From positions 1-64,000 of the forward strand of contig NZ_JACJUV010000003.1 in NCBI RefSeq assembly GCF_014218805.1: a stretch of DNA of 64,000 nucleotides, read 5' to 3'. The translations under genes and the position numbers were made by a program. The notes beneath the pieces are model-generated. The model worked only from the letters and a program-made list of their open reading frames with translations. It was not told the DNA's origin and did not search any database. Below are positions 13,507-35,588 of this stretch, in pieces. Each line of letters opens with the position of its first letter. Position 1 is the first letter of the stretch. Source of the DNA: Teredinibacter franksiae. Lineage in GTDB: Bacteria; Pseudomonadota; Gammaproteobacteria; Pseudomonadales; Cellvibrionaceae.

Positions 13507-13795
13507 TTTTTACATTTTCACATACAAAAAATGCAGTTTACGCTCTCCGCAGCGTAGCTTTTTGTTCTTAAACAGAAACACATTAAAAATTTTGAATAGG
13601 CTAATAATTTTGGGTGTATGAATTGCGAACAACTTCTGCTTATACTTTAGGTTACCTCAATATAATACACCGGCTTCAATTATCGTCAGTATCAGAAATA
13701 TAAAAATAGGCGCACATTCTAAAACTTAATAAAAATTGAATGTGCAAAACCCTAGCGGTTCCCACCAACATCATGTTTGCAACGAGGAATACCCT

Positions 13796-16021
13796 ATGTT
13801 TAAAAAACCCTTATGGCGGTTTGTACGCGGGCACTTGATTTTAGCCAGTGCAACAGTGCTTGCGCTGAGCAGTGCGCAGGCAATGGCCTTACAATGTAGC
13901 TACAACGCAATAAATGACTGGGGCAGCGGCTTTACCGCCAGTATTACCGTCAGCAACGACAGCGCATCTTCGATTTCCAACTGGTCGGTTAGCTGGCAAC
14001 AAAACGGCAATTCCACTGTAACAAGTTTGTGGAACGCTAATTTGTCTGGGTCCAACCCCTACACAGCAACCCCCCACGGTTGGAACAGTACAATTGCGCC
14101 GGGTAGCACCGTAAGCTTTGGCTTTCAAGGTAATGGCGATGATTCCACCGGCACCATCTCCGACTGTGCAGCGGAGGGCGCCAGCTCCTCATCTAGCTCG
14201 ACCAGTTCTTCTAGCTCTAGTAGTTCATCAAGTTCTAGCAGTTCGTCAAGTTCTAGCAGTTCATCCAGCTCTAGTAGCTCTTCATCCAGCTCTAGCAGTT
14301 CATCCAGCTCTAGTAGCTCTTCAAGCTCATCCGCTGGCCAATGTATAGACATGTGTAAGTGGTATCAGGATGACCCTCGCCCACTTTGCATTAACCAGGA
14401 TTCTGGATGGGGCTGGGAAAATAACCAAAGCTGTGTTGGAATTACTACCTGTAACAGCCAGTCGGGCGGCGGTGGTGTTATCAGTGTTTGCGATGGCAGC
14501 AGCTCTAGCAGCTCTTCATCCAGTTCAAGCAACTCCTCGTCCAGTACAAGTAGCGCTTCCTCAAGTAGCAGTTCCAGTAGCTCATCGTCAGTTTCTAGCT
14601 CATCGTCGAGTAGCTCGTCCTCTAGCGGCAGTGGCAACAACACCATCACCGTACGCGCCATTGGTACAACAGGCGTTGAACATTTGAATCTGCTTATAGG
14701 CGGTACTGTTGTTGGTAGTTTTACCCTCAGCACCAGCTATCAAGATTACACGTTTACCTCCAGCGCCGGTGGCGACGTAAAGGTTGAATACGATAACGAC
14801 AGTGGCAACTCCGATGTACAAGTGGACTATGTCGTTATTAACGGCGCTATTCTGCAAGCAGAAGATCAAGCCGAAAACACCGGCGTTTGGTCCAATAGCC
14901 AATGCGGTGGCGCACATTCAGAATGGTTACAATGCAACGGCTACATTAGTTTCGGTTTCATCAGTGGTAGCGCTGGCAGTTCTTCATCGGCCTCCGGTAC
15001 CGGGCTCTATACCCACGCAGAATTCCCTATTGGCGTAGCCGTCTCCGGGCCAGGTGAAAGCCGTAACTTCCTCGATATTGCAGAAAAACAGCTATCGATA
15101 AGTGAACATTTCAGTGAGCTGACCGCCGGTAACATCATGAAGATGAGTTACTTACACCCCGCGGAAAATACCTACAACTGGGACAACGCAGACCAGCTCA
15201 TCAACTGGGCACAGGCAAGTGGCAAACAGGTTCATGGCCATACGTTTATCTGGCATTCCGACTATCAGGTACCCAACTGGATGACAAGCTATACCGGCGA
15301 TTTTGCCGCTATGCTAGATACCCATGTGGCAACCATTGCCGACCATTTCGAAGGCCGTGTGGTGAGCTGGGATGTAGCCAACGAAGTTATTGACGAGAAC
15401 AATAACTGCTGGCGCAACTCGCTGTTTTATCAACAATTAGGTTCGGCCTTTGTTGAAAATGCCTTTTTTGCTGCACGTGCCGCCGACGCAAATGCCGACC
15501 TCTACTACAACGACTATGACACGGAAGGCGGCAACGCCCCCAAGTTCGACTGTCTACTGCAATTAGTTGATGATCTACAAGCCAATAATGCACCTATTGA
15601 CGGTGTTGGTTTTCAGATGCACGTGCAAATTGATTGGCCCAGTACCAGCGTCATTGCCAGCGCCTTCCAAGCTATTGTAGACCGAGGTTTAAAAGTTAAA
15701 ATAACCGAGTTGGACGTACCACTGAATAATCCATGGGCCGCTGATCCTTTTCCGCAATATACGGGATTCACAGCAGACGCCGCTGAACGACAAAAACGAC
15801 GTTATAAGGCTATTGTGCAAACTTACCTCGACACGGTTCCCGCACACCTACGTGGTGGCATAACCGTATGGGGCTTGTGGGATGGCGACAGCTGGCTGAT
15901 GGACTTAAGCTCGCGACAGGGAGCAGATGACTGGCCGCTATTGTTCTCTGGGCCGGAGAATGGTCCCTATGAAACCAAACCTGCATTAGAGGGGTTTATT
16001 GAGGCGTTGACGGGGCAGTAA
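13796..16021 (+). CDS. secreted multimodular GH10 endo-xylanase (CBM2, CBM10-like, CBM60-like, GH10)
   Basis: The start at 13796 is set by GAGGA at 13784-13788 and gives a 741-residue precursor with a signal peptide of about 31 residues. Modules in order are: CBM2 (about 32-121, opening LQCSYNAINDWGSGF), a poly-Ser linker, a CBM10-like cysteine-rich module (QCIDMCKWY, SGWGWENNQSC), a second poly-Ser linker, a CBM60-like xylan-binding module (ITVRAIGTTGVEHLNLLIGG, VQVDYVVING) and GH10 (about 405-741). The catalytic acid/base is the Glu of WDVANEVID (about 530) and the nucleophile the Glu of ITELDVPL (about 638). The enzyme would cleave xylan outside the cell while its binding modules hold it to cellulose and xylan. 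A strong terminator follows. Confidence 0.95.
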   Translation: MFKKPLWRFVRGHLILASATVLALSSAQAMALQCSYNAINDWGSGFTASITVSNDSASSISNWSVSWQQNGNSTVTSLWNANLSGSNPYTATPHGWNSTIAPGSTVSFGFQGNGDDSTGTISDCAAEGASSSSSSTSSSSSSSSSSSSSSSSSSSSSSSSSSSSSSSSSSSSSSSSSSSAGQCIDMCKWYQDDPRPLCINQDSGWGWENNQSCVGITTCNSQSGGGGVISVCDGSSSSSSSSSSSNSSSSTSSASSSSSSSSSSSVSSSSSSSSSSSGSGNNTITVRAIGTTGVEHLNLLIGGTVVGSFTLSTSYQDYTFTSSAGGDVKVEYDNDSGNSDVQVDYVVINGAILQAEDQAENTGVWSNSQCGGAHSEWLQCNGYISFGFISGSAGSSSSASGTGLYTHAEFPIGVAVSGPGESRNFLDIAEKQLSISEHFSELTAGNIMKMSYLHPAENTYNWDNADQLINWAQASGKQVHGHTFIWHSDYQVPNWMTSYTGDFAAMLDTHVATIADHFEGRVVSWDVANEVIDENNNCWRNSLFYQQLGSAFVENAFFAARAADANADLYYNDYDTEGGNAPKFDCLLQLVDDLQANNAPIDGVGFQMHVQIDWPSTSVIASAFQAIVDRGLKVKITELDVPLNNPWAADPFPQYTGFTADAAERQKRRYKAIVQTYLDTVPAHLRGGITVWGLWDGDSWLMDLSSRQGADDWPLLFSGPENGPYETKPALEGFIEALTGQ
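14170..14630 (+). repeat. poly-serine linker-coding repeats
   Basis: Two low-complexity blocks, about 14170-14333 and 14500-14630, encode almost pure serine with mixed AGC, AGT, TCA, TCT and TCC codons. Short units such as AGTTCATCCAGCTCT recur. They flank the CBM10-like module. Long poly-serine linkers of this sort are characteristic of plant-wall hydrolases in Cellvibrio and Saccharophagus relatives. Antisense frames here give artificial Leu/Glu-rich proteins and are not genes. Confidence 0.9.
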
Positions 16022-20787: not shown

Positions 20788-21546
20788 TCAAAAAGGCGAG
20801 CAGCCTTTTCCGCAAGGAAGGGTGACTAGAATAATCCCAAGTTCCAAACCCGAGCCACCTGAACCGTCAAAACTATCGCCGTAGGTTATAGCGAAGCGGA
20901 AATTGTCGTTAGGCTCCCAGCGAAAACCGGCTTTATATTGGATATCTGTACCAACATCGCCCTCACTGCCAAACACTTCAGCGATGGGGGACCATGAACC
21001 AATGGCCTTATTCCACGAAATTCTTGCCGCATAGGTAAAATCCCATGCTGTGCCGTCAAAAGCATCGCCTGTTTTTGCTGATACACCTGGGTTTACATCC
21101 AATTGAAATTTATTGTCTGCTAGGGGGATGGTCCAATCGACAAGTGCGTAAACATCTCGGAAAGATTCAATCCTCAGGCTGCGATCATAATATTCCGGAT
21201 TTAAGCCAGAACCGAAGGTCCACGAAACACCCCCGGTTTTACTGTCATTCTCCCACAAATTGTTTTTTGCTATAAAAATGGTGGAGAAATGATCCCCCGC
21301 CTGACGATCATCATCCTCCCATATGAGAGAGGCCCCTAAAAATATTTCCCATTTTGGGAATAGCCCATAAGAAGGAAGCACCGCAGCATTATTTTCACCG
21401 GCGGTGAATACAACATTTGACGATTTGTACGGCATAACAAAATAGTCATCGGTAACAAACTGTTGTGCCTGAGATAAACCACTGAAGAGAACTATAAAAA
21501 GCGTCGCCAGTGTCGCAATGAATCGTTTCATTTGATGTATGTTCAT
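20788..21546 (-). CDS. putative outer-membrane beta-barrel protein
   Basis: The 252-residue product begins with a signal peptide (FIATLATLFIVLFSGLSQAQ). The rest alternates polar and hydrophobic residues with many aromatics, as in small outer-membrane barrels, and has repeated strand-like segments (WEIFLGASLIWEDD, YKAGFRWEPNDNFRFAITYG, GLELGIILVTL). It ends CGKGCSPF rather than in the usual C-terminal aromatic, so a barrel is not certain. ATG at 21546 has GAGG eight bases upstream. It is the last gene of the minus-strand exported-protein series. Confidence 0.65.
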   Translation of the reverse strand: MNIHQMKRFIATLATLFIVLFSGLSQAQQFVTDDYFVMPYKSSNVVFTAGENNAAVLPSYGLFPKWEIFLGASLIWEDDDRQAGDHFSTIFIAKNNLWENDSKTGGVSWTFGSGLNPEYYDRSLRIESFRDVYALVDWTIPLADNKFQLDVNPGVSAKTGDAFDGTAWDFTYAARISWNKAIGSWSPIAEVFGSEGDVGTDIQYKAGFRWEPNDNFRFAITYGDSFDGSGGSGLELGIILVTLPCGKGCSPF

Positions 21547-21647
21547 GTATGTATCCTCGTGTTCTCAATCAGCTCAAAGCATTTTTATAAATAGTGCCAT
21601 TGTTGACAATCAACTTACTATTGCTATCAGGGTCGTTACGGCACTAC

Positions 21648-23228
21648 TTACTGCTCAGACAGACGTATAGCCTTACCCGGAAAAACACCTCGTAATACTT
21701 TGGAATTACTCACTACTACTGTGCCGTTAACTACTACGTAGGGTATTCCAGTCGAAGGTAAACCACCGTCTTTCATGGTGGCGTTGTCCCTAACGGTTTT
21801 CGGATTAAAGATGGTGATGTCCGCATCGGAACCCACCTGCATACGCCCTTTATAGGCCATTTGTGTCACACCGTTTTGCTCTAAAAAATCGGCAATCAGG
21901 TACGTCATTTTGGACACACCATCAATCAGGGGAATATCCACCTTCTTTTCTCTCATCAACCGTAATAACTTGGCATGAGCCCCAGCACCACGAGGATGAC
22001 CGTTGACACTATCAAAAGGCGTGTCCCAGGCAATAGCCGGCTCACCGGTTTTACGAACGGTGTAAGGATAAGAGTCACTTCCCAAGACGGTATTGGGGTG
22101 CGCTAGCGCTTGATAAACGGTTTCTTTTGTTGCGTTGTAAAACATTACCGATGTGCCTGGTGCTGTTTTTACCAACTCATCATAGCGGGCCTTGTCGAGT
22201 GGCTTCATGGTGGAGACCTCGATAATATCTTTGTAATCGCGTCCCATGTTATTTTGGTAATTGTCCGGGTGTAAATAATCGGCGCCGGCGATGGTTCCGC
22301 CGAAATCGTAGGGGTAAATTTCAGCCAGAATGTGTATGCCCTTGGTTTGCGCATCATCAATCATTTTCAGTGCCTGGGGGGTTACCCCCAGCGTTTGCGC
22401 CGTCATATGTTGAATAACGACACCGCCACCGTGTATCGCTTGCGGCGCCATCATTTCGTCAATGCCAAGCAAGCCGCTCTGTGGCGGTTTTTGGCTTGAA
22501 TAACGTGCATGTACGGCCGTAAATACTCCGTATTTTGCTGCCAGTTCTTGCGCTATATGTGACTCTTGCTGAGTAGCACCCGACACCATGTAACCTGGGC
22601 AGTGGCCAATACCAATAGCGCCTTGTTTTAACCCCTCTTCCAGTAAACTTTTGATCGTGTCAATTTGATTTTCTGTAGCCACTTGTGTTGACCACTTCAT
22701 CGACGCGCCGGTAACCTTTGGTTTTTGCATGTCATACAAAAAATCGCCATAGGCTTGGGACTTATAATTTGGGTTAAACACCGTTTCGCGTACCGGAATG
22801 GTACCCACAGAGGCGCCATAATTTGTTTGAGACTTTCCCTCCAAATAGGCATACCAGCTATCAACCGGGTAGACACCGGCTTCAAGCTCCATAGGTGTTG
22901 TTACTCCATCGCGAAGCGCCAATTTCTGCCCAAACGGGGCAGCCGTATTGTGGTCGTGCATATCAATAAAACCAGGAGAAACCACATGATCTTTCGCATC
23001 TATAGATTTCTTGCCGCTGATTTCCTCCTTAGTGATGATGGCGATTTTTCCATCTTTGACACCGACATTACGCACCGCATCAAGTTTAGTTTCGGGGTCC
23101 ATAACCCGGCCGTTAAGAATGACCAGATCATAATGTTGAGCTGCAAAAACCGATGCCGTTGGCATGAACAGAATAGTTAAAGCAACTAAGCCAATCGCGA
23201 ATCGATTTATTGCCGTTAGTATTTTCAT
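21648..23228 (-). CDS. exported D-aminoacylase-like amidohydrolase
   Basis: The 526-residue product has a signal peptide (FAIGLVALTILFMPTASVFA) and a metal-dependent amidohydrolase barrel: YDLVILNGRVMDPETKLD, SPGFIDMHDHNTAAPF (the metal-binding His-x-His region), GIGHCPGYMVSG, VIQHMTAQ, LGSDSYPYT and, near the end, VGSDADITIFNPKTVRDNAT. The closest group is the N-acyl-D-amino-acid deacylases, which act on N-acylated D-Glu or D-Asp. Substrates of exported members are poorly known. The start at 23228 follows GGAGG; a GTG 12 bases upstream lies inside that ribosome site. Confidence 0.87.
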   Translation of the reverse strand: MKILTAINRFAIGLVALTILFMPTASVFAAQHYDLVILNGRVMDPETKLDAVRNVGVKDGKIAIITKEEISGKKSIDAKDHVVSPGFIDMHDHNTAAPFGQKLALRDGVTTPMELEAGVYPVDSWYAYLEGKSQTNYGASVGTIPVRETVFNPNYKSQAYGDFLYDMQKPKVTGASMKWSTQVATENQIDTIKSLLEEGLKQGAIGIGHCPGYMVSGATQQESHIAQELAAKYGVFTAVHARYSSQKPPQSGLLGIDEMMAPQAIHGGGVVIQHMTAQTLGVTPQALKMIDDAQTKGIHILAEIYPYDFGGTIAGADYLHPDNYQNNMGRDYKDIIEVSTMKPLDKARYDELVKTAPGTSVMFYNATKETVYQALAHPNTVLGSDSYPYTVRKTGEPAIAWDTPFDSVNGHPRGAGAHAKLLRLMREKKVDIPLIDGVSKMTYLIADFLEQNGVTQMAYKGRMQVGSDADITIFNPKTVRDNATMKDGGLPSTGIPYVVVNGTVVVSNSKVLRGVFPGKAIRLSEQ

Positions 23229-23380
23229 TTTTTCCTCCACCTAAAATTAAGGTAACGCACCGCATGTTACTACACGCTCTAAGCTCATCAACGAACACCG
23301 AATTTTGTATGTAATTATTAAAATAGCCCCTGTTAACTGTCTAGTATTAGAAGACAAAAACACGACAGCTTGCGTATCAA

Positions 23381-23956
23381 TCAAACAGCTAAATCCAGCT
23401 CTTTTACAGCAGACCTAGCCGTTAAACCAAATATCAGTACTGTCCAGCCACTGAAAAATAGTTTAATGCCAATAAGCGTGCCGACAGTCCAGATACCCGA
23501 CACAGGGAATTGCCTCCATATCATGGCGCCAAGTAATACCGAGACAGCGCCGCTGAACAGGGCCCAGCCCCAGCCTTTCATTGGCTTAACCTGAAAAGCT
23601 ATAATCGACTCGAAAACACCTGAAACCACGAGATAGATTGCGAGCACCATCGTCATGGTTGCTAGGGCAACGCCAGGATTACTCACCATGTAACCACCTG
23701 CGAGAACGGTAAGAATAGCCATAATAATGCTGAAAAGCCCTGCACGTGCTTTTAGCGCGAACACCAGCTGGCCAACACCACCAATAATTAGCAGAAAACC
23801 CACCGCAACCGCTAGGGAAACACCTACGATGAAGGGTGATCCCATGGCCAATATGCCCATCAGTAAAACGATAACACCCACGGCTATCGTAAGACCTGAA
23901 TTCTTTTTTACTTCATTCAGGAACGCGGAATTTATAGTTTTTATTTCTTGTGACAT
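23381..23956 (-). CDS. HdeD/DUF308-family membrane protein
   Basis: The 191-residue protein has six predicted transmembrane helices arranged as repeated pairs, for example LTIAVGVIVLLMGILAMGSPF, then FSIIMAILTVLAGGYMVSNPG and LFSGAVSVLLGAMIWRQFPVS. This matches HdeD (DUF308), linked in E. coli to acid resistance at high cell density, though the molecular job is unsettled. AAGGAAG precedes the ATG. It lies between the HupE gene and the D-aminoacylase-like gene, all on the minus strand. Confidence 0.85.
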   Translation of the reverse strand: MSQEIKTINSAFLNEVKKNSGLTIAVGVIVLLMGILAMGSPFIVGVSLAVAVGFLLIIGGVGQLVFALKARAGLFSIIMAILTVLAGGYMVSNPGVALATMTMVLAIYLVVSGVFESIIAFQVKPMKGWGWALFSGAVSVLLGAMIWRQFPVSGIWTVGTLIGIKLFFSGWTVLIFGLTARSAVKELDLAV

Positions 23957-24070
23957 TGTTTCTTCCTTTCAATTAGTTTTATGTTTTCTATACTTTTTAC
24001 ATTATTCCGCTTCACGCGCTATGTTTGTTACCGAACGCCGTTCTCTTTTTATCAGGGCATGAATAGCCAC

Positions 24071-24100
24071 AGTTAAAGTTAAAGTTAAAGTTAAAGTACT
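24071..24100. repeat. AGTTAA hexamer repeat, five copies
   Basis: Five exact copies of AGTTAA lie 115-144 bases upstream of the HdeD-family start and just downstream of the HupE-family stop at 24110. On the minus strand it reads TTAACT repeated. The position suits an effect on hdeD transcription through spacing changes, but no promoter element could be placed with certainty. Confidence 0.9.
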
Positions 24101-24109
24101 GTATTGTAG

Positions 24110-25120
24110 TTACAAATAAAAACCACTTACCCGCTCGACAAACCAAAACGCGGCCATGGTTCCAATGCCATAGGCCGGTACCTGCCTGCTCCAAAGCGGC
24201 CAGTTGTCGCGTAATTTTTGCAGGATAAAAACAAAAACAAGAATCACCACAACAAACAGAATTTGCCCTAACTCGACACCGATGTTAAACATTAACAGTG
24301 CCAGTGGGATTTCGTGCTGTGGTAAGCCCACATCGGCCAGTGCTCCAGCGAACCCCAACCCATGCAGCAAACCAAAGGCAAACGCCACCAGCCAGGGATA
24401 GTTTGCGGTAAGGCTTGGTTGACCGCGATTAACCTTTAACATTTCACTGGCGAGAAACAGAATGGATAGAGCAATGGTGGCTTCTACCGGTGGACCCGGC
24501 AGCCACAACCAGCCCAGTGTCGCCGCCGCCAGCGTTATACTGTGGGCGATGGTGAACGCGGTAATGGTCATTAACAAGCGACGGGTACCGCTAACGATCA
24601 ACAATAGCGCCAGCACAAATAAAAGATGATCAAAGCCTGACAAAATGTGTTCAACACCGAGCACGGTGAAATCCCAAACAACCTGCCCAGCACTTCGTGG
24701 CCCTTTAAAAATCAGCCACGGCTGAGACGGTTTGAGCAGCGCGGTCGAGCTGGCACCATTGGCAAATTCAATGCGCACCAACACATCGGTGTTAGTCATC
24801 TGCAAACCATTAATATCAATACGCTGGCCAATTATCCCTTGCGCACCCGTTTCAATCAGGCGGCGTTCAACCGTTGCACCGGGTAATTTTCGCAGTACGG
24901 GTTTAGTAAGATTCTTCACCTGCGCTGGAAACTGCAATGACAGCGCAAGCTGTTGATTTACCAGCTTCGGGTTACGCCATATAACACTGTAACGGTTGGC
25001 CGTAGTTTCCTTTAGCTCCAGGTAACCGGGTTGCGAATCATCGGCACAAACGGTATTGCAAAACACACCAACCGTAATGAACGCAAAAATAGCCAACAAT
25101 GAATGACAATATCGCTTCAT
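24110..25120 (-). CDS. HupE/UreJ-family membrane protein
   Basis: The 336-residue product has a signal peptide, a periplasmic N-terminal half (to about residue 165) and six or seven C-terminal membrane helices with the family motif HILSGFDHLLFVLALLL and then FTIAHSITLA, FGLLHGLGFAGAL and MFNIGVELGQI. The histidine-rich intramembrane motifs suggest metal (nickel or cobalt) transport as in HupE. The group with a large N-terminal domain is common beside peptidyl-prolyl isomerases and its role is less clear. Its start overlaps the isomerase stop by four bases (ATGA), so the two are coupled. Confidence 0.87.
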   Translation of the reverse strand: MKRYCHSLLAIFAFITVGVFCNTVCADDSQPGYLELKETTANRYSVIWRNPKLVNQQLALSLQFPAQVKNLTKPVLRKLPGATVERRLIETGAQGIIGQRIDINGLQMTNTDVLVRIEFANGASSTALLKPSQPWLIFKGPRSAGQVVWDFTVLGVEHILSGFDHLLFVLALLLIVSGTRRLLMTITAFTIAHSITLAAATLGWLWLPGPPVEATIALSILFLASEMLKVNRGQPSLTANYPWLVAFAFGLLHGLGFAGALADVGLPQHEIPLALLMFNIGVELGQILFVVVILVFVFILQKLRDNWPLWSRQVPAYGIGTMAAFWFVERVSGFYL

Positions 25121-26037
25121 CGAAGCTCTTTCCCAGACTGTGCATCAGTATGAGCTGTCTCGTTTGAAGCCAAATCCACAGAGGTAATATCCAATGACCC
25201 CAAATATTCTGGCATCACTACTTCATAGTTTTCCAGCAATTTTCGATAAGTACTCAGCTTCAACTCTTCGGTGCGCAGTAACAGCCACTCGTTTTTCACC
25301 TTTTGCTTAACCTCGGCCAGCTCAGGCATGCGAGCTGGTTTAATCTCGGTGATCAGCACCAAGTGGCCACCAAAACCTGAGGTCAGAGGCCCTGCCCACT
25401 CGCCGGGCGCTACTGCCAACAACTGCTGGGCAAAGCCTTTACCAAAACGCTGTTTAATCTCATTCTGGGATACCAGCGCATACCTATCTGCCAACATTAT
25501 TGGATCACCCTGTAACTCTGGGTCTTGCCCTGATTTCAAGCGCTCCAAAATCGCACTCGCATCCGCATTAACATCACGACGCTTTTCAAAACTGAGATAA
25601 ACCTGACGAAAAGAAACCTCTGGCTGAATACGAAACGACTCCGCATGTTCATTCATGTAGGCCGCCAACTCCTGATCATCCGGATCGAGTAGGGCTGCGG
25701 TGTCCTCCAAAATAATACCCAGCTTCTGACGAAGGCGCCGACGAATAACAGTGTCATCCTCGTCCAACCCCAAAGCCAAAGCCTCGCGGTAATAAACTTC
25801 ATCGCGCAGATATTTGTCGATAAGATCCTGCATTTCCTCGTTACTCGGAGAACGCTGCCATGTGCTGGCGAAATTAGCCGACAGCAACTCAAGCTGGCCC
25901 TGTGATACGACAATCTGATTGGGTTTTTCAATCGTGCCCGCAGTCGTCATACCGAACAACAGAAAAACGCCACCTCCCAGCAGCAAAAAATGCAGCAAGG
26001 GCTCCCTGATCATTTTACTAAGAACGTTCATCAACAC
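25117..26037 (-). CDS. parvulin-like peptidyl-prolyl isomerase, membrane-anchored
   Basis: The 306-residue protein has one N-terminal membrane helix (LLHFLLLGGGVFLLFGM) and then a SurA/PpiC-like body: a helical chaperone part (YLRDEVYYREALALGLDEDD, RLRQKLG) and a rotamase-like part (FRQVYLSF, IKQRFGKGFAQQL, PGEWAGPLTSGFGGHLVLI). It should act on proteins in the periplasm. The four-base overlap with the HupE-like gene suggests it helps fold or insert that protein. ATG codons at 26037 and 26031 are both possible starts. Confidence 0.85.
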   Translation of the reverse strand: MLMNVLSKMIREPLLHFLLLGGGVFLLFGMTTAGTIEKPNQIVVSQGQLELLSANFASTWQRSPSNEEMQDLIDKYLRDEVYYREALALGLDEDDTVIRRRLRQKLGIILEDTAALLDPDDQELAAYMNEHAESFRIQPEVSFRQVYLSFEKRRDVNADASAILERLKSGQDPELQGDPIMLADRYALVSQNEIKQRFGKGFAQQLLAVAPGEWAGPLTSGFGGHLVLITEIKPARMPELAEVKQKVKNEWLLLRTEELKLSTYRKLLENYEVVMPEYLGSLDITSVDLASNETAHTDAQSGKELR

Positions 26038-26108
26038 CTCACTTATTGCTTTGCCATCGGCTTAGGGCCGCGTACCAAATGAACGATGTTGACAACATCG
26101 AGTCGGTT

Positions 26109-27182
26109 TCAATTCACCAACACCAATTCAGGTTTCACCCATTCACCGTTAAAGTAAGCTTCCGTGGGTTGATAAAGTCGTAATGTAAAATTCCACCCGT
26201 CGAAGGTTTCCATATAGTTTTTCGCGTTTTTGTCGCCGCCAAAATGGATAGTTACCGAACCATCTTTTTCTGCCTCAGCAAAGGCGCTGTTGATGTTGTA
26301 GGTGTCCGTTTGCGGAAAGCCTTCTTTGTCATAAACCGTAATTGACCAAAAAGCGTTAACCGGCACATCTTTTAGGGTTAATGTTTGCGGGGCATTCGTT
26401 TTTGGGAAATATTGTGGATAAACGGCCTGGTCTGGTGTAAACCCGCCCCAACCAAAGGCGTTACCGGCATTACGATTATTGAGTGAAATCTCACCTTTTT
26501 TACCAAACATATCTGAGGTCGACATACCATTGCCGATCTCCATGTATTTGGCTCGCATCGCCAAAACCTCTTTATTGTCCCAATGATTTTCCGGAGCCCA
26601 GGAGCCTTTGTCTTTTTGCGTGAGTGTCAACTTGTCTTGCAGTGCGTGGGCTTTCACCAAATCTTTAGCATCTCTTACATTGACTTGTGTCCGCATAACG
26701 ATCACGGCATAACGTGCACCACCAATCCATTCTCTGGTGATTTTGTGTTCCCCAGGTGTGGTATATGCGCCGGGGTAATAGCCATCTTCACTGACAATCC
26801 ATGCACTTTGATAACGTCCGTTTGTTTCCGGCATGGTAAGTACTGCAGGCTCGGCTAGGTCTACAATAGCCCAGGAGTAAATCGTATCGAAGTTGATACG
26901 CATAATGGTGCGATCTTTGGGGTCAGCACCCTTTCTGTAGTGCATAAGAACACCAACACCATTGGTATTCGTTGCAGCCGCAATTTTTTTGACATACCCC
27001 TCTATTACGCCATGCGTTTCAGCTAAGGAATAGTTCTCGTCAGTAACTGTTGTCGTTTGTTGTTGCTGCTTTACGGCACTCGTCGAAGAATCGGCGGGGT
27101 CTTGCCCTTTAGCACATGCTGTAAGCATGCCCGCCAGTATCAACCCAGTCAGAGCTCGTGTTAACAGTTTTGTTGTGCGCAT
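26109..27182 (-). CDS. DUF1254/DUF1214 lipoprotein
   Basis: The 357-residue product has a lipoprotein signal (LTGLILAGMLTAC) followed by a polar linker rich in Gln and Thr. The body has the DUF1254 features (RINFDTIYSWAIVDLAEPA, YQSAWIVSEDGYYPGAYTTPG, YAVIVMRTQV) and the C-terminal DUF1214 beta domain (LTLKDVPVNAFWSITVYDKEG, DGSVTIHFGGD, GWNFTLRLYQP). The biochemical role of this family is unknown. It is paralogous to the protein at 28892-29956, which is not a lipoprotein. A gap of 326 bases with hairpins precedes it, so it probably has its own promoter. Confidence 0.88.
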   Translation of the reverse strand: MRTTKLLTRALTGLILAGMLTACAKGQDPADSSTSAVKQQQQTTTVTDENYSLAETHGVIEGYVKKIAAATNTNGVGVLMHYRKGADPKDRTIMRINFDTIYSWAIVDLAEPAVLTMPETNGRYQSAWIVSEDGYYPGAYTTPGEHKITREWIGGARYAVIVMRTQVNVRDAKDLVKAHALQDKLTLTQKDKGSWAPENHWDNKEVLAMRAKYMEIGNGMSTSDMFGKKGEISLNNRNAGNAFGWGGFTPDQAVYPQYFPKTNAPQTLTLKDVPVNAFWSITVYDKEGFPQTDTYNINSAFAEAEKDGSVTIHFGGDKNAKNYMETFDGWNFTLRLYQPTEAYFNGEWVKPELVLVN

Positions 27183-27508
27183 TTTATTCTCCTAAATGTA
27201 TTTATTAACCCGGCAACACAATAGGTTGTCGGGTTGATGCGGCACAAGGATGTACCGCCGCCGGTGACAGACCGGCGCGATCCCTTTAAATGCCAGTAAC
27301 TCCCCCGCAGTTGCGCCAATATTTCAAGGGCGAATCAAATAGGTGATGAATCACTTATTTGATAGCCGGGTTTATAGCTGCTTGCGATGCAGGGAAAAGC
27401 TAGCTGCCACTAAGCAAGTTTTTACGCGGCTGATCGAGCAAGTGCCATCCACCGGCACATGTTTAAGATTGAGATTGTCAGCGGTTACAGACAGCTCTAA
27501 GATCAAAA
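27183..27508. promoter_or_regulatory. hairpin-rich leader upstream of the DUF1254 lipoprotein gene
   Basis: Three inverted repeats occur in 160 bases: 27207-27235 (11-bp stem, one wobble pair), 27259-27277 (CGCCGGT with ACCGGCG, perfect 7-bp stem), and an AT-rich 30-bp palindrome at 27334-27363 (13 of 15 positions paired). The last could be an operator or a weak terminator of the amidohydrolase operon that ends at 27509. The first two would be in the leader RNA. No known riboswitch consensus is recognised. Confidence 0.45.
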
Positions 27509-28876
27509 TTATTGTCGCAGTGTGTTCTTGTAGACCTTGCCATCTTTCATAATCAGCTTGAGGTTATTATCCGGATCACCCAACAGCTTGATATCCTGTA
27601 AGGGGTCGCCATCCACAATCAAAAGATCAGCATAGGCCCCCGGCTTAATTACACCCAAAGCGCCCGCGGTATAAGGATTTAACTTTCCGCTAAGGGCAAC
27701 GATTTCGGCATTAACTGATGTTGCCTGTTTGAGAATTTCCACTGGTGTGAACCATTTAAGCCGGAACTCAAACTCTTCGCTTTGCTTGGCGTAATCTTTG
27801 GATGAACCGAACAGGTCGGTGCCAAAACCCACCTTAACCTTATATTTCTTGGCCAATTTCATCTGATTGTCCAACGCATCGTTCAGCACCATCACCTTAC
27901 CCAGCGTGGCAGGTCCAAAAGACTCAAAGAAAGCCTTATCTTTCTCCGTCACGGTAAACAGGCGAGCTTGGGGTACCAGATAGCCACCCTTCTTCGCCAA
28001 CATCTTCATGGTTTTTTCTGTCATTAACGTACCATGGTCAATACCCAGCACACCGGCCTCCAATGCGCGTCGAACTGATTCATCATGATAGCCGTGAACC
28101 ATTACGTAGCTGCCCCAATCACTTGCAGCCTGAACCGCCGCACGAATTTCCTCTACCGTATATTGCGTGGTATGCAATGGATCTGCTTGCGAGCTGGCTC
28201 CGCCACCAATCGTTACCTTGATGTGTGTCGCGCCTCGGCGTAAGGACTCGCGGGTCGCGCGCAATACTTCTGCCGGGCCATCGGCAATAAAGGCAAAGTG
28301 ATTCTGAAAAAAGGTCGACTGCCCACCCGACATATTAGGGTGAGTTTGTGAGTAGTTACGCGTATCGCCATGGCCGGAGGTTTGTGAAATGGCCGGCCCT
28401 GCAGGGTAAATACGAGGCCCTTCAGCTCTACCCTGATCAATAGCTCTGGCTAGACCGATAGCGGGGCCACCGGCATCGCGTACCGTGGTAAAACCTCGCA
28501 ACAGCATCAATTTCGCCTCTGATGCAGAGGCTGCGCCAATCCACATCCAGTCGACATTATTCATCATCACCGGATAGGGCGCCGGAAATCCCATATGCTG
28601 GTGAGAATCGATAAGCCCTGGCATCAGTACGCGACCACCGCCATCAATCACTGTGGCATCAACACTTGCTTTAGCTTCAGTGGATATCGTTTTGATAAGA
28701 TTATCTTCGATCAAAACATTAGTGATAGCGGTAGATTTGTCGCTGGTACCGTCAAACACTTTTACATTTTTGATCAACACTTGTTGTGGTGCTTTGTCAT
28801 CGGCAAAAACCAGCGTCATCAATGACGACAACACGACAAAAGCAAACAACGACTTAATTAATTCCGGTGTTTTCAT
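27509..28876 (-). CDS. exported amidohydrolase (imidazolonepropionase/prolidase-like)
   Basis: The 455-residue product has a signal peptide (SLFAFVVLSSLMTLVFA) and an amidohydrolase barrel: VLIKNVKVFDGTSDKS, VLMPGLIDSHQHMGF (metal-binding His-x-His), LLRGFTTVRDAGGP, HIKVTIGGG, VMVHGYHDESVRRAL, GIDHGTLM, VGFGTDLFG and the closing GVIKPGAYADLLIVDGDPL. The group includes Xaa-Pro dipeptidase-like and aryl-dialkylphosphatase-like hydrolases, and the substrate cannot be told. It starts 15 bases after the DUF1254 gene, with GGAG before ATG 28876, and ends the three-gene operon. Confidence 0.87.
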   Translation of the reverse strand: MKTPELIKSLFAFVVLSSLMTLVFADDKAPQQVLIKNVKVFDGTSDKSTAITNVLIEDNLIKTISTEAKASVDATVIDGGGRVLMPGLIDSHQHMGFPAPYPVMMNNVDWMWIGAASASEAKLMLLRGFTTVRDAGGPAIGLARAIDQGRAEGPRIYPAGPAISQTSGHGDTRNYSQTHPNMSGGQSTFFQNHFAFIADGPAEVLRATRESLRRGATHIKVTIGGGASSQADPLHTTQYTVEEIRAAVQAASDWGSYVMVHGYHDESVRRALEAGVLGIDHGTLMTEKTMKMLAKKGGYLVPQARLFTVTEKDKAFFESFGPATLGKVMVLNDALDNQMKLAKKYKVKVGFGTDLFGSSKDYAKQSEEFEFRLKWFTPVEILKQATSVNAEIVALSGKLNPYTAGALGVIKPGAYADLLIVDGDPLQDIKLLGDPDNNLKLIMKDGKVYKNTLRQ

Positions 28877-28891
28877 TCTATTCTCCACTAT

Positions 28892-29956
28892 TTATTTAAC
28901 GGCTTGCGGTGCTGGAAAGGTCCAGCTGCCTTCAAGAATTTCCTTACTTGGTTGATACAAACGCACCAAGTAATTCCAGCCTTCCATAATCGGCAAATAA
29001 TTAGCTTGTTTCGGGTCGCCACCAAAATGAATGGTCATACTTCCGTCATCGTTCTGGGTGCCGGTAATATTGTTCACCGAGTAAGCGTTATACTTGTTCT
29101 GCTGAAAATAGCCTTCCTTGTTATACAGGCTGATCGACCAAAAACCATCCACCGGCACGTCTTTCACAGTAAGAACGTAGGCGGTTTTGCCATCGTTCAC
29201 TTCAGGTGTAACGCCCGTGTACATGGCGTGATTTCTCGGGTTGCCGCCCCACCCTGTCGCACTGGCAAAAAGAAACTTAAGCGGATTGACTTCGTCCTTG
29301 CTGCCGAACGAACCATCGTAGTTTTCCATGGTCGCGGAGAGTACTTTCAACGCGGCGCGCACCTTTTCTTGTGACACTGCATCCCACTTGGGGATTTCAA
29401 ATGTGCCCGCAGACTTCTGCTCGACCTTGAGTTGCCGCTGTATAGCATTGACCTTTTCCACGTCCTCCGGATCTTCGGAGTCGACCAGCGTTCGAACAAC
29501 CACAAACACATAGCGGGTGCCGATTTTTTCTTGGGTAAGGGTGTAGCTCCCCGGCTCATAGACGACCATCGTGGTGTATTGGTCTTCATTAATCACCTGC
29601 ATCGATTGAAAGCGTTTGCCGGTATCCATTTTGGTAATGGTGACAGGCGCGGCCAAATCAAAAATGGCGAAGGAATAAATGGTGTCACGGTTCATTCGCA
29701 CCACCTTTTGCTCATCGATGGGCGTTGGTTTGGGGACGTGATAAAACTTGCCGAAAGCCCCCATCTTGACGTAGCTGCTAAACATCGCATCGCTCTCGGC
29801 GCGGACGAAATTCTTCCAAGTAACCGGAATCACTTCGGTCGTACTCGCCGATGGCATGCTGTTTTCAACAGGTACTTGTTGTGCACCGGCTGCTACAGAC
29901 AAGCTAACAGCCATCATTCCGGCCAGTACGAATGTAAATAGGTATTTTGTTTTCAT
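28892..29956 (-). CDS. exported DUF1254/DUF1214 protein
   Basis: The 354-residue product has a signal peptide (FVLAGMMAVSLSVAAGAQ) and no lipobox. It shows the DUF1254 part (VVRMNRDTIYSFAIFDLAAP, YTTMVVYEPGSYTL, YVFVVVRTLVD) and the DUF1214 part (LTVKDVPVDGFWSISLYNKEG, DDGSMTIHFGGDP, WNYLVRLYQPSKE). ATG at 29956 with GAGGG upstream is chosen; a longer frame from 30013 would overlap the DUF3604 gene. It starts 16 bases after that gene. Its paralogue at 26109-27182 shares the same motifs. Confidence 0.9.
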   Translation of the reverse strand: MKTKYLFTFVLAGMMAVSLSVAAGAQQVPVENSMPSASTTEVIPVTWKNFVRAESDAMFSSYVKMGAFGKFYHVPKPTPIDEQKVVRMNRDTIYSFAIFDLAAPVTITKMDTGKRFQSMQVINEDQYTTMVVYEPGSYTLTQEKIGTRYVFVVVRTLVDSEDPEDVEKVNAIQRQLKVEQKSAGTFEIPKWDAVSQEKVRAALKVLSATMENYDGSFGSKDEVNPLKFLFASATGWGGNPRNHAMYTGVTPEVNDGKTAYVLTVKDVPVDGFWSISLYNKEGYFQQNKYNAYSVNNITGTQNDDGSMTIHFGGDPKQANYLPIMEGWNYLVRLYQPSKEILEGSWTFPAPQAVK

Positions 29957-29972
29957 CTTCGACCCTCTGTTT

Positions 29973-32063
29973 TTATGTTCCCGGCGTGTACCAAATTGGC
30001 GACGTGTAAGCACGTTCCTGAGTCGTCATAGGAACCTCTTTATCCATTTCAACGTTAAACCTTTTGGCGTCGTAAGCTGTCCAGCGCGGGGTGGGGATTT
30101 CGATAATTCTGGCGTAATAGAATGCGCGAGTTTTTGGTTCGAAGTCTGGATCTTTCCAAACCGTAATTAACTCGGGAGCACCGATGGTACTGGTCCAGGT
30201 GGCTTCTTTAATATTGACTGTATTACCAACGACAGGAAGTTTTCCATCGCTACCCGGTTTACGTTTATCAGCATCGCTCCATACCACGTCGTACACTTTT
30301 TCGTGCAGATTGCCTTTGCCATCCAGCCAGCCTTTGACGACCTGAACGCGATCAAGGTTTCCGCTGTAAGGGTCTTTTAGCGCGGCAACAAGAAACGTTG
30401 GCGCTTTACCGGCAGGTGCATGACTTAAATCACCGCCCATGGGCACACCCTTGCTGTAACCGGCCTCTGCGGGCATGCGGGTTTGTGCATCGGCGGGAGT
30501 AAAATCAAAGCCACCAAAAAATCGGACGGTAATGCGCGGCCCGGTGGATGAGTAAGTTTCTTTACGCTTCATTGCGTCCCAAAGTGCTTCACGGGTATTT
30601 TCCGTTGCCCAAACTCCAGCCCAACCGGCGGCGGCGAGTTTCCAGCCCGGCGTTTTAACTTGTGGGGTATCAAGAAAAGGGTGTACCCAACGATCTGGCT
30701 TGGGCTCCTGCGCAGCCGTTTTACTGAAGTAGTTATCTTCTTCGGGAGTGCTCAACGCCGTGTGTGTATCGGTGCCGCCTACAAAACCATATTTGAAGGG
30801 GTTAGTGCCAAACTTTTCTTCCAACTTAAGGCCTTGTTTGAGTGCTTCACGGGCGTACTCGTTACGAATCATGTCTGGCGTTTTTGGAACGCCCGCAAGG
30901 TTAGACTGATCCCAGGTATCGAAGTCAGCAAACTCATCATTGGGCGACAACATGGGGTGCGCTTCGCCGTCTCCCTTCATTTGGGTTACTTCGTACAGGG
31001 GCTCCCAGCGAGCGCGATCTTCTGCCCACTGTTTGGTGAGGCGCTTACCTTTGAAGGTGTTTAACGCGAACATCTTGCCATTGGAAAGATTACCGTTGTG
31101 CGGAATAGCGAGAACAGAACCAAACGTTTTTTCTTCGTACCTTTGCATCCACTTCCATAAATCTTCTGGGTTTTCACTGTCGAAAGTGGTCATCGGTACC
31201 ATCTGGTCGGCCAGTGCCTTACCATCTCGATAGATAACATTACGGTGCAGATTGTCACCACCACCCGCATTGGAGGTCCACTCATAACCAATAAACGCGG
31301 TAAAACGCCCCGGCTCATTGTATTGCTCCATAATCGCGGTGTTCTTGCGCCAGATATTCATCGCGAATTTGGCATCTTTCATTACCGCGGGGATTCTATT
31401 ATTCGATTGGGCTTGAATCATCTCGCTGGTGGCTTGTAAACCGTTACCGGCTTTCATCATGTTGTGCCATTTCTTAATCAGGGGTACGGCCATAAACGCG
31501 GCGTCACCATCACGGATGGAAAATATGGTGCCGGCCATGTCTGAGTGATCGGCCACTACCAACCAATCAAGTGGACGCGCAAGTTTCGCAGGCACACCAG
31601 TGGATGACATTACCTCTTCGCCACGCGCAAATCGAACCGCGTCTTCTGGCGTTAGGGTTGCTCCCGCAGCGCCCGCATCCACAGACCAACCGGTATGCAC
31701 GTGTTGATCACCCCAATACACTTGAGTGGGGTACTTGCGCCCTGCGTAGGGCGAAAACCCTTGTGTGGATAAGGCTTCGGACGTGGTTTTTTCATCGCGC
31801 GGGTAGTCTGCACCTACAACCTCAGCGCTGACGGCAGGAAGGGCCATCAATACCAGCACTGCGGTTAAAGCCGCAAACAAAGCCTCTCTATATTTTGCAG
31901 TGCAACCGCTTAAACGACATTTGCAGACTGACACTGAATACGCCGTAATCAGTCGAAAAGCTTTAATCGCTTTGACAGCGAAGTGCCCGCCTCGGCTATG
32001 TGCACGAACGCCCTTACTTTCAATACGATTAAATCCTACTTTTGTACAGTATGAATGGCCCAC
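29973..32063 (-). CDS. DUF3604 (PHP-like metallohydrolase) exported protein
   Basis: The protein carries YWGDQHVHTGWSVDAG, the metal-binding motif of DUF3604, a PHP-related fold, then LDWLVVADHSDM, AFIGYEWTSNAGGGDNLHRN, IPHNGNLSNG, FVGGTDTHT and a C-terminal beta-rich region. The substrate is unknown. A hydrophobic signal-like segment (ALFAALTAVLVLMALPAVSA) lies well inside the frame. GTG at 32063 is used because GAGGAG lies nine bases upstream, giving 696 residues with an unusually long N-terminal extension. ATG 32117, or GTG 31934 with an ordinary signal peptide, are alternatives. It heads the operon with DUF1254 and an amidohydrolase. Confidence 0.88.
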   Translation of the reverse strand: MGHSYCTKVGFNRIESKGVRAHSRGGHFAVKAIKAFRLITAYSVSVCKCRLSGCTAKYREALFAALTAVLVLMALPAVSAEVVGADYPRDEKTTSEALSTQGFSPYAGRKYPTQVYWGDQHVHTGWSVDAGAAGATLTPEDAVRFARGEEVMSSTGVPAKLARPLDWLVVADHSDMAGTIFSIRDGDAAFMAVPLIKKWHNMMKAGNGLQATSEMIQAQSNNRIPAVMKDAKFAMNIWRKNTAIMEQYNEPGRFTAFIGYEWTSNAGGGDNLHRNVIYRDGKALADQMVPMTTFDSENPEDLWKWMQRYEEKTFGSVLAIPHNGNLSNGKMFALNTFKGKRLTKQWAEDRARWEPLYEVTQMKGDGEAHPMLSPNDEFADFDTWDQSNLAGVPKTPDMIRNEYAREALKQGLKLEEKFGTNPFKYGFVGGTDTHTALSTPEEDNYFSKTAAQEPKPDRWVHPFLDTPQVKTPGWKLAAAGWAGVWATENTREALWDAMKRKETYSSTGPRITVRFFGGFDFTPADAQTRMPAEAGYSKGVPMGGDLSHAPAGKAPTFLVAALKDPYSGNLDRVQVVKGWLDGKGNLHEKVYDVVWSDADKRKPGSDGKLPVVGNTVNIKEATWTSTIGAPELITVWKDPDFEPKTRAFYYARIIEIPTPRWTAYDAKRFNVEMDKEVPMTTQERAYTSPIWYTPGT

Positions 32064-32200
32064 GATTAGTTGCTCCTCACGGTTAAATTTGTCCAGCTTA
32101 AACTTCAACACTTGCATTCACTTAACTCTTTGGCGATTACTCTGTTATTCGCTGACGACAATACCAGCGTGGTAATGCAGTGCGTTTCCTGCTTACCTTC

Positions 32201-32947: not shown

Positions 32948-33967
32948 TTAACCGACTAAGGCAAGCTCTCTATATTGCTTAGGTGTCATACCACTATAAC
33001 GCCGAAATGCGCGGGTAAAATTGGAGGGGTCTTCATAGCCCGTGGCAAAACCAATATCTAACACGCGCGCTGAAGGGTCTTTTAATAAATGAGAGGCTAA
33101 TTCATATTGCGCACACTGAACAAGTTTGGAATAGCTCGTGCTGTTGTCACTGAGACAACGCTGTAAGGTACGCACACTAACGCCCGCTATCTCAGCGGCC
33201 AAGGTTATGGGGGGTATACCGTCGCCTAAATAGGGTTTCAAAATATTTTTAAACGATTCGCTAAAGCCAGACAATGTGCTCGTACCTAAATCAGTCTGCC
33301 CACATTGCTCGCAGCGCCGAATCATCTCAAATGTAACGTGATGTAACGTACTGGCCAAAAGCTTTTCAGGAATACTCACCCAAGCCGATGGTTGGCCAAT
33401 ATAGAGCGCCGTATTAGGGAAAGACTGTTGAACATAAGCACCTAATGGCACTGAAGAATGGAGCCCCATCTCAGCGGGCAACCAATGGGCACCCACAAAA
33501 GCCTGTACGATCGCAACCAGCATCGCATTGGTATTCATTTCGCAGTGCCTAGCACCAAACACATCCAAAACCACTTCTTCGCGGCTACACACGTGAATAT
33601 GTTCACCGTGTTTCTCAGCCCATATACGCAGCTGAGTATCTTCTAGCCGTGCTAAGGTGAAAAAACTTTCTAGGGCTACGTTCAAACTTGGGGCCAGCAA
33701 TATTCTCTGCACAAATTCTGGTGATAACTCCGTGATCGCAAAGTGTTCGCGGGCTCGCAAGGCAATGTCATCGACGCCTTGCTCCCTTGCCATCAGTGTC
33801 AAAAAATTCAGCGTATGCAACAGTGACAACTGAGCTTCGGGATCATCTCGCAAACCACCCGGCAGCTTCGCTTCAACAAGCTTTTTATCGACCGGCGCAC
33901 CTACTTTATCAAGCATGCGTAAATAAGGATGTAAATGTGCTGCCCTGAAGTGGGGAACCCTATTCAT
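32948..33967 (-). CDS. AraC-family transcriptional regulator (Arabinose_bd type)
   Basis: The 339-residue protein has an N-terminal domain of the OruR/ArgR-like Arabinose_bd type (about 20-210; LPAEMGLHSSVPLGAY, FPNTALYIGQPSAWVSIP) and a C-terminal double helix-turn-helix (ITLAAEIAGVSVRTLQRCL, VLDIGFATGYEDPSNFTRAF, YSGMTPKQYRE). Regulators of this group usually activate a neighbouring catabolic operon on sensing its substrate. The nearest candidates are the DUF3604 operon on the same strand and the yiaW/yiaV-like pair on the other. The shared 16-bp motif near all of them supports this link. Confidence 0.92.
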   Translation of the reverse strand: MNRVPHFRAAHLHPYLRMLDKVGAPVDKKLVEAKLPGGLRDDPEAQLSLLHTLNFLTLMAREQGVDDIALRAREHFAITELSPEFVQRILLAPSLNVALESFFTLARLEDTQLRIWAEKHGEHIHVCSREEVVLDVFGARHCEMNTNAMLVAIVQAFVGAHWLPAEMGLHSSVPLGAYVQQSFPNTALYIGQPSAWVSIPEKLLASTLHHVTFEMIRRCEQCGQTDLGTSTLSGFSESFKNILKPYLGDGIPPITLAAEIAGVSVRTLQRCLSDNSTSYSKLVQCAQYELASHLLKDPSARVLDIGFATGYEDPSNFTRAFRRYSGMTPKQYRELALVG

Positions 33968-34329: not shown

Positions 34330-34647
34330 ATGGCGTTTATCGATATTTTCACTTGGATCGTTTTTTTGATTATGATTTCCGTAGTTGTTGGAATCATTGT
34401 CTTTATGGGCCTATGGCCAGGGCGAATTGCAAAAACGCGCCAACACCCTCAAGCGGAAGCGATAACTATTGGCAGCTGGGTGTGCCTTTTATTCGGAGGT
34501 GTCATGTGGCCACTTATGCTTATCTGGGCCTATACAAAACCTAGCACCGCATCACAGCAAGCAGACACCATAATGCTTGCACAAAAAGTGGCGCTATTGC
34601 AAACGCGCCTAGAAGCGTTAGAGCGGCAGAAAGGAGAAAACCAATGA
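34330..34647 (+). CDS. yiaW: DUF3302 inner-membrane protein, YiaW-like
   Basis: The 105-residue protein has two membrane helices (about 6-29, IFTWIVFLIMISVVVGIIVF, and 47-67, GSWVCLLFGGVMWPLMLIWAY) with FMGLWPGRIAKTR between them and a C-terminal coiled coil (AQKVALLQTRLEALERQK). This matches the DUF3302 family, the companion of YiaV-like membrane-fusion proteins. Its stop overlaps the next start in ATGA, so the two are coupled. It probably scaffolds or partners the adaptor protein; the exact job is unknown. Confidence 0.85.
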   Translation: MAFIDIFTWIVFLIMISVVVGIIVFMGLWPGRIAKTRQHPQAEAITIGSWVCLLFGGVMWPLMLIWAYTKPSTASQQADTIMLAQKVALLQTRLEALERQKGENQ

Positions 34648-35588
34648 TTCTGGTACTGTTAATTGTTTACCTTGCCTTTCTTGCTATAGCCATAAAATTC
34701 AAACTGATTAAGCCCACCTTATTCTGGAAAATATCACCATTACTTTGGGTCGTCTTTTTATTGGTTGCTCTGTTTATTCCACTACAATTCTGGGCTCCCG
34801 GTGGCTATATCCGTGTTATTGCACCAACTGTGCAAATTGTACCCAATGTCTCCGGTCAAGTTATTAATGTAAGCGTAAAGCCGAATCAACACGTTAGCAA
34901 AGGCGATATCCTTTATCAGCTCGACGCTCGCCCTTTCCAATCTGTGGTAGACCGTCTTCAAGCCGATCTAACGCTTGCGAATATCCGCTTTGAACAACAA
35001 GAAGAATTACAACAAAAAAACCTTGGCCGAAAACTCGATATTGACCGTACGCGGGCCAATGTCGCTTCCACCCAAGCCCAGCTAGACAAGGCTCAATACG
35101 ACCTTGAACAAGCCACTGTGCGCGCGCCCGATAGCGGTATTGTGACTAATGTTGAAGCTTTGCAGGAAGGCGCTAGAGTGGTGTCTGCACCCTTTGCGCA
35201 AACCCTGGCATTTGTAGAAGACAACAACCGGCCCATTTTCGCGCAAATACAGCAAAGCTATTTACGCTATGTAGAAATAGGACAGTCGGCAGAAATTGCT
35301 TTTAAAATGTATCCCGGTCAAGTATTTCCAGCCACAGTAAAAGCCATTTTACCCGGATCCTCCCTTGGGCAATTCGGACCATCAGGCATTTTACCCACTA
35401 CGCTCAGTGAAGTTCACGGCCCCATGTTTGTTAGACTTTATCTAACGGACACCGCCATGGCTGCATCACTACCTGCCGGCGCTACTGGAGACGTTGCAAT
35501 TTATACCGAGAAAGGCTCTGCATCACATGTTATTAGAAAGGTGATGATACGAACAACAGCCATAACAAACTACGTTAACCCATTTTGA
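34644..35588 (+). CDS. yiaV: HlyD-family membrane-fusion protein, YiaV-like
   Basis: The 314-residue protein has two N-terminal membrane helices (about 1-17 and 29-47), then a biotinyl-lipoyl-like strand (VIAPTVQIVPNVSGQVINVS, VSKGDILYQLDARPFQ), a coiled-coil hairpin (about 100-150), the second half-lipoyl motif (TVRAPDSGIVTNVEALQEGA) and a beta-barrel part. These are the features of periplasmic adaptors of the HlyD/EmrA type. No pump gene is adjacent, as is also the case for E. coli yiaV. The substrate is unknown. Confidence 0.9.
   Translation: MILVLLIVYLAFLAIAIKFKLIKPTLFWKISPLLWVVFLLVALFIPLQFWAPGGYIRVIAPTVQIVPNVSGQVINVSVKPNQHVSKGDILYQLDARPFQSVVDRLQADLTLANIRFEQQEELQQKNLGRKLDIDRTRANVASTQAQLDKAQYDLEQATVRAPDSGIVTNVEALQEGARVVSAPFAQTLAFVEDNNRPIFAQIQQSYLRYVEIGQSAEIAFKMYPGQVFPATVKAILPGSSLGQFGPSGILPTTLSEVHGPMFVRLYLTDTAMAASLPAGATGDVAIYTEKGSASHVIRKVMIRTTAITNYVNPF

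Follow-up and report, generated by a model that had tools for sequence, protein, structure and literature searches.

The window analysed here, a stretch of 64,000 nucleotides from Teredinibacter franksiae (contig NZ_JACJUV010000003.1, positions 1 to 64,000), contains nine reading frames between positions 20788 and 32117, each on the minus strand. They encode a DUF3604 protein, two DUF1254/DUF1214 proteins, two exported amidohydrolases, a parvulin/SurA-like protein, hereafter called PPI, a HupE_UreJ_2 protein, a HdeD-like membrane protein and a secreted protein of 252 amino acids (aa) (Table 1). Families were assigned with Pfam and NCBIfam, and signal peptides were judged by eye. An initial annotation had named these genes, with families that agree with those assigned here, and had read the row as an undescribed regulon. 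The part of the row that recurs elsewhere is the set of DUF3604, PPI and HupE_UreJ_2, hereafter called the core, and not the whole row, which goes beyond chance because this part is found again in many genomes.

Table 1 Features in and next to the minus-strand row of the window
Feature	Position	Strand	Basis
Longer AraC-like protein, candidate regulator	32948..33967	-	Reading frame; 35% identity to the 118-aa HTH part over 96 aa
AraC helix-turn-helix (HTH) part, 118 aa	32296..32652	-	HTH_18, 75 bits
DUF3604 (PF12228) protein, predicted exported PHP-fold metallohydrolase, core	29973..32117	-	Pfam, 797 bits
DUF1254+DUF1214 protein, first copy, signal peptide	28892..29956, start ATG 29956	-	Pfam, sequence, PDB matches
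Exported amidohydrolase (Amidohydro_1), outside the conserved core	27509..28876, start ATG 28876	-	Pfam, 107 bits
Decayed 3' end of a third DUF1254 gene	27360..27487 (approximate bounds)	-	Collinear matches, blastn
DUF1254+DUF1214 lipoprotein-like protein, second copy	26109..27182	-	Pfam
PPI, membrane-anchored parvulin/SurA-like (Rotamase_2), core	25117..26031	-	Pfam, 47 bits
HupE_UreJ_2 protein, periplasmic beta-sandwich and 7-helix membrane part, core	24110..25120	-	Pfam, 163 bits
DUF308/HdeD-like membrane protein, downstream	23381..23956	-	Pfam, 68 bits
Exported amidohydrolase of NF006560, downstream	21648..23228	-	413 bits, cut-off 340
Secreted protein of 252 aa without known family	20788..21546	-	No Pfam match at E 0.1

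Among 58 relatives searched, DUF3604 was found in 18 genomes and HupE_UreJ_2 in 39. After split rows had been merged and weak fragment rows dropped, leaving 62 DUF3604 and 65 HupE places, DUF3604 lay within 6 kb of HupE_UreJ_2 at 20 of its 62 places, in 16 of the 18 relatives that bear it. Clustering of the frames in 42 DUF3604 neighbourhoods of relatives placed DUF3604 in one cluster (40 neighbourhoods), followed by HupE (15), PPI (14) and a next family with 7. In a class sample of 229 genomes DUF3604 was matched in 23 and lay near HupE_UreJ_2 in 12, as judged by eye, two of these 12 (G069 and G169) relying on DUF3604 matches below 65 bits. Named genomes were scanned with a profile of the module HupE proteins, and the best 80 of 588 loci were kept, figures from which describe close relatives of the window HupE rather than all of PF13795. 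Fifty of the 80 held HupE, PPI and DUF3604, 27 held HupE and PPI (77 with PPI in all) and three HupE alone. By record titles these loci, many of them from metagenome-assembled genomes (MAGs), include Alpha-, Beta-, Gamma- and Deltaproteobacteria, Neptunitalea, Prosthecobacter, Pirellula, Sulfurovum and Vicinamibacteria.

In the window the genes of PPI and HupE overlap by 4 bases (25117-25120). Of 111 HupE copies, 96 have a same-strand PPI within 500 bases, and a HupE start giving exactly this overlap was present in 73 of 100 same-strand pairs. Among 72,556 plasmid records, 85 held relatives of HupE and 79 relatives of DUF3604, mostly from Rhizobium and Sinorhizobium; in S. medicae WSM1115 and S. 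meliloti USDA1021 conjugation genes adjoin a row made up of two DUF3604 genes, PPI and HupE. Pairwise distances of the three core proteins across 63 triads gave a correlation well above permutations, in which co-function and shared descent are not separated. The source genome itself holds a second DUF3604-PPI-HupE triad (G000:C1:3216009, L051). No paper joining the three families was found in open-licence full texts.

The model of the DUF3604 protein has the fold of a PHP alpha/beta barrel. The metal ligands of such barrels follow the pattern HxH, D, DH, E, H, DxH, and the nine positions were invariant in every DUF3604 row with a letter there (59 to 63 of the 63 triads). The protein is thus predicted, from its modelled fold, to be a PHP-fold metallohydrolase that is presumably exported. 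The listed start at 32117 is probably too far upstream and the true start inside the frame, because residues 1-75 have a predicted local distance difference test score (pLDDT) below 50 and, by eye, only two other rows of a 20-row alignment extend into them; a hydrophobic helix follows at residues 75-97. A sequence search of PDB with DUF3604 gave no convincing match, and against the CehA/McbA family (NF038032) the protein scored 16 bits (cut-off 80), with an hhalign probability of 1-2%. In the open-licence literature found, to the extent of the text available, no tested function was named for DUF3604 or for DUF1254/DUF1214. A third DUF3604 copy of the source genome (G000:C8:451936-453579) has an in-frame stop, and the family is multiplied in related genomes, with 20 matches in G039 and 11 in the 2.3 Mb of G015 (fragments counted). 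Arylsulfatase-like genes lie near DUF3604 in the window (37330-38874, minus strand) and at L042, L058, L098, L124, L135 and L223, as raw occurrences uncorrected for background.

The PPI match to Rotamase_2 lies above the cut-off of 27 bits, and the profile of the protein matched Cell-binding factor 2, SurA, PrsA and HP_0175. Its N-terminus is, by eye, a hydrophobic segment. In a loose alignment of 19 sequences (mean column identity 30%) D95, R101, G199 and W214 were invariant and P13, F17, S220, G223 and H225 nearly so. Because so few residues are conserved, PPI could possibly be a chaperone without isomerase activity.

The AlphaFold2 model of the window HupE_UreJ_2 protein (pLDDT 88) consists of an exported N-terminal beta-sandwich and a membrane part of seven helices. 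In fold comparison the periplasmic domain matched ZrgA, PA4063 and the 'anglerase' Ang-1 (9GCE), the last reached by fold only, and a PDB sequence search gave no convincing match. The modelled domain thus resembles zinc- and copper-binding domains. The membrane part carries the motif of HupE nickel permeases, a His and an Asp-His, and the corresponding H158, D164 and H165 were kept in all 96 PPI-linked HupE copies. An alignment column was used to infer the first mature residue of the same 96 copies, of which 73 have His there and 23 Asp. From the model, the protein may be regarded as a putative metal-capture permease. A second HupE/UreJ-like gene was seen near the PPI-HupE_UreJ_2 pair at L074, L075, L084, L088, L115, L124, L160 and L166 by BLAST clustering (PF04955 checked for L084).

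The closest described relatives are the anglerases Ang-1 and Ang-2, which are fused to HupE/UreJ-2 (PF13795) and for which a capture model is proposed and His is reported as the first mature residue in 100% of both (Nat Commun 2025, PMC12537917). The window protein is likewise a PF13795 permease with an exported N-terminal beta-sandwich, but its domain is shorter, with 131 residues from the inferred N-terminus to His158; median lengths were 127 and 130 in PPI-linked copies and 165 in 13 solo copies, some of them truncated. The window protein and the other PPI-linked copies also differ in having His or Asp at position 1, and in being tied to PPI and DUF3604 rather than to DUF4198, indigoidine-A-like and PfkB proteins, the neighbours named in the article's text. 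ZrgA of Vibrio cholerae and PA4063 of Pseudomonas aeruginosa are zinc-bound periplasmic proteins, separate rather than fused to a permease, with identity of about 11%. On the enzyme side, Sb-PDE of Sphingobium sp. TCM1 is an exported PHP phosphodiesterase with 2.1 zinc per enzyme (PMC5460133); it shares a signal peptide and PHP domain with DUF3604, but has 441 aa and belongs to PF02811, and HupE is unmentioned in the main text of the article. The CehA/McbA carbamate hydrolases are exported or periplasmic esterases, McbA having a polymerase/histidinol-phosphatase-like domain with essential histidines (PMC8292978); the DUF3604 score given above separates the window protein from this family.

Seven loci without DUF3604 encode a different exported protein, roughly 700 aa long, that carries a set of PHP-like motifs; in three of the seven its gene lies on the strand opposite HupE. 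No Pfam family was found in the three members scanned. Two members matched CehA/McbA under the cut-off (5.5e-12 and 7.7e-10), and hhalign of an alignment of six of the seven members with CehA/McbA gave a probability of 74% (E 2.8e-5); against PDB the best E was 0.078, with a PHP protein at 0.41. On sequence grounds this family is not provably homologous to DUF3604.

The reading favoured here, at about an even chance (roughly 0.5), is that the core forms an envelope module of three genes, for an exported metalloenzyme, a folding helper and a metal-capture permease. What is shown is the gene linkage, the predicted folds, the conservation of the ligands and the 4-base overlap of PPI and HupE. The DUF3604 metalloenzyme would be secreted by an export route that we infer, and PPI, anchored in the inner membrane and SurA/PrsA-like, would assist its folding as chaperone to client. 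The periplasmic beta-sandwich of HupE, whose mature form begins with His or Asp, would catch a transition metal, and HupE would secure the metal of DUF3604 either by periplasmic hand-over or by holding and recovering it, the genes presumably sharing one transcript. With a secreted metal-dependent enzyme, a helper and a metal-catching transporter in one unit, the enzyme may be served by a dedicated metal supply. This module retains what the initial annotation proposed of a hydrolytic system in the envelope that includes a HupE-type membrane protein and a protein resembling a folding helper.

Several observations weigh against the three-gene module. HupE_UreJ_2 was absent within 6 kb at 42 of the 62 DUF3604 places of relatives, and 11 of the 23 DUF3604 genomes of the class sample had no such pair, so that a linked permease is evidently dispensable for many DUF3604 proteins; conversely, 35 of 100 PPI-HupE pairs had no DUF3604 inside 4 kb. 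The distance correlation carries no correction for species history. The first mature residue of the window HupE is, as inferred, Asp27 and not His, and in the fold comparison Ang-1 (8.2) is followed directly by unrelated channels at 7.6. HupE-type permeases are described as importers, so that delivery of metal to an enzyme in the periplasm would not be the direction expected first. A hairpin at 26100-26084, which separates the second DUF1254 gene from PPI, could terminate or attenuate a transcript shared by them. Finally, hhalign of DUF3604 with the 700-aa family gave a probability of 1.7%, that is, no profile support. A wider version, in which PPI and HupE_UreJ_2 would act as a portable cassette that metallates exported PHP enzymes, with DUF3604 as main client and the 700-aa family as another, the periplasmic domain loading the metal directly into the enzyme, the membrane chaperone holding the enzyme open and the N-terminal His or Asp setting which metal is supplied, is unlikely.

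The remaining genes accompany the core to different degrees. Both window DUF1254 proteins carry DUF1254 and DUF1214, with a mutual identity of 35%, and the second has, by eye, a lipobox-like LTAC, in line with the duplication, once as a lipoprotein, noted earlier. In PDB the first copy matched VPA0106 (3u07, E 2.9e-5) and VPA0735 (E 0.0027), and for a DUF1214 (PF06742) protein of Malassezia one article predicts, from a model, a jelly-roll glycosyl hydrolase (PMC4634964). In the gap 27183-27508 lies what is left of a third DUF1254 gene, a decayed 3' end in which two collinear stretches match the corresponding end of the first copy (scores 48 and 24 at ordinary gap costs); the best of 500 shuffles reached 26 singly and 40 in sum, none being as good, and blastn gave E 0.002. 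A further DUF1254 gene of the source genome (G000:C1:2429026, L072) shares about 50% identity with the first copy. Around DUF3604 in the relatives (42 loci) DUF1254 was not matched, but it was found in five of the best 80 of 588 named loci and in two plasmid loci, by which the idea that it is private to the source genome was ruled out. A Colwellia MAG (L119) has a same-strand row of DUF3604, PPI, DUF1254 and DUF1214 frames and DUF3604, and same-strand DUF1254 rows lie on plasmids of Microvirga ossetica (L218) and Rhizobium leguminosarum 248 (L219). For enrichment, 42 named loci were used (the 50 with DUF3604 minus seven short ones and L142), with each genome's PF06863 count as background (65 matches in 42 genomes). 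DUF1254 lay near the core in five of the 42 against 0.24 expected (P 5e-6), or in three (P 0.002) when L128 and L130, with split genes about 6 kb away, were dropped. DUF1254 is a partly recurrent addition to the core, in a minority of loci.

The amidohydrolases, the HdeD-like gene and the 252-aa gene are extras, rarely or never found with the core elsewhere. The first amidohydrolase (PDB 3mkv, E 1.7e-72; 3feq, E 2e-63) was matched in none of 166 loci scanned, a lone partial BLAST match of 48 bits lying in a DUF1254 locus (L205). The second, akin to N-acyl-D-amino-acid deacylases (PDB 3gip, 1rjp), was matched in four of the 166 and exceeded the NF006560 cut-off in two of the 58 genomes. The HdeD-like protein has DUF308 and reached 65 bits with NF007577, below its cut-off of 189; no HdeD match was found in any DUF3604- or PPI-bearing locus among 159 scanned. 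The 252-aa protein, to which Pfam gives no family, was present in one of the 58 genomes, its own. The conserved neighbour set proposed earlier therefore holds for the core and, above expectation, for DUF1254, and the undescribed regulon stands as a real neighbourhood but not in its eight-gene extent. Both AraC frames lie outside 20788-32117, and AraC neighbours of four relatives match the nearer one, the 118-aa HTH part, by their C-terminal part only. Divergent from the longer AraC-like gene, a DUF3302 gene (76 bits) and a HlyD-type adaptor gene lie at 34330-35588 on the plus strand; in Microvirga ossetica (L226) this pair also occurs, immediately ahead of a DUF1254 gene. A GH10 xylanase (glycoside hydrolase family 10) with the carbohydrate-binding modules CBM2, CBM10 and CBM60, at 13736-16021 on the plus strand, suggests a plant-polysaccharide degrader.

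With the ATG starts of Table 1, the gaps between DUF3604, DUF1254 and the amidohydrolase are 16 and 15 bases, as reported before, and here the DUF1254-amidohydrolase-DUF1254 set inside the core unit probably adds exported proteins to the same transcript. These short gaps in the 5' part and the single strand, together with AraC-like genes in five of 40 DUF3604 loci of relatives, are what speaks for a single regulon that would comprise the eight genes, be switched by AraC and hydrolyse an amide or ester. That reading is very improbable, as the gaps further down the row are about 77 to 326 bases and the HdeD-like, amidohydrolase and 252-aa genes do not recur with the core. A promoter scan found 17 sites (shuffle mean 20.5), and there were 26 terminator-like sites (shuffle mean 17.6, s.d. 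4.4, both strands pooled). Amide hydrolysis finds no support here: it rests on amidohydrolases outside the core, the enzyme of the core is predicted to fold as a PHP protein, and the characterised exported PHP enzymes cleave phosphodiesters or carbamates.

Two further readings are each given a low likelihood. The PHP enzyme might hydrolyse a metal-holding organic ligand and HupE capture and import the freed metal, so that the unit would serve metal acquisition with the enzyme as its front end. This agrees with the import role of HupE, with the capture model for anglerases (PMC12537917) and with the second HupE/UreJ-like gene at eight loci; it is doubtful all the same, as no third family occurs in more than 7 of the 42 DUF3604 loci, leaving no regular metal regulator or receptor, and the multiplication of DUF3604 in G039 looks more like catabolism. 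Such catabolism is the subject of the other reading, a degradation pathway in which DUF3604, DUF1254 and the amidohydrolases would be separate exported enzymes and PPI-HupE a general helper. The enrichment of DUF1254 near the core, its same-strand rows in L119, L218 and L219, the arylsulfatase-like genes near DUF3604 and the breakdown of pollutants by exported PHP enzymes (PMC5460133, PMC8292978) would fit it. It is nevertheless unlikely, since the core is seldom if ever accompanied by the amidohydrolases, and HupE and PPI outnumber every other family around DUF3604.

The three-gene module offers a way into the function of DUF3604, as it predicts co-expression partners and metals worth testing. 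It also leads to the proposal that some HupE/UreJ-2 permeases may serve secreted enzymes and not uptake alone, with a His/Asp alternative at the metal-binding N-terminus.
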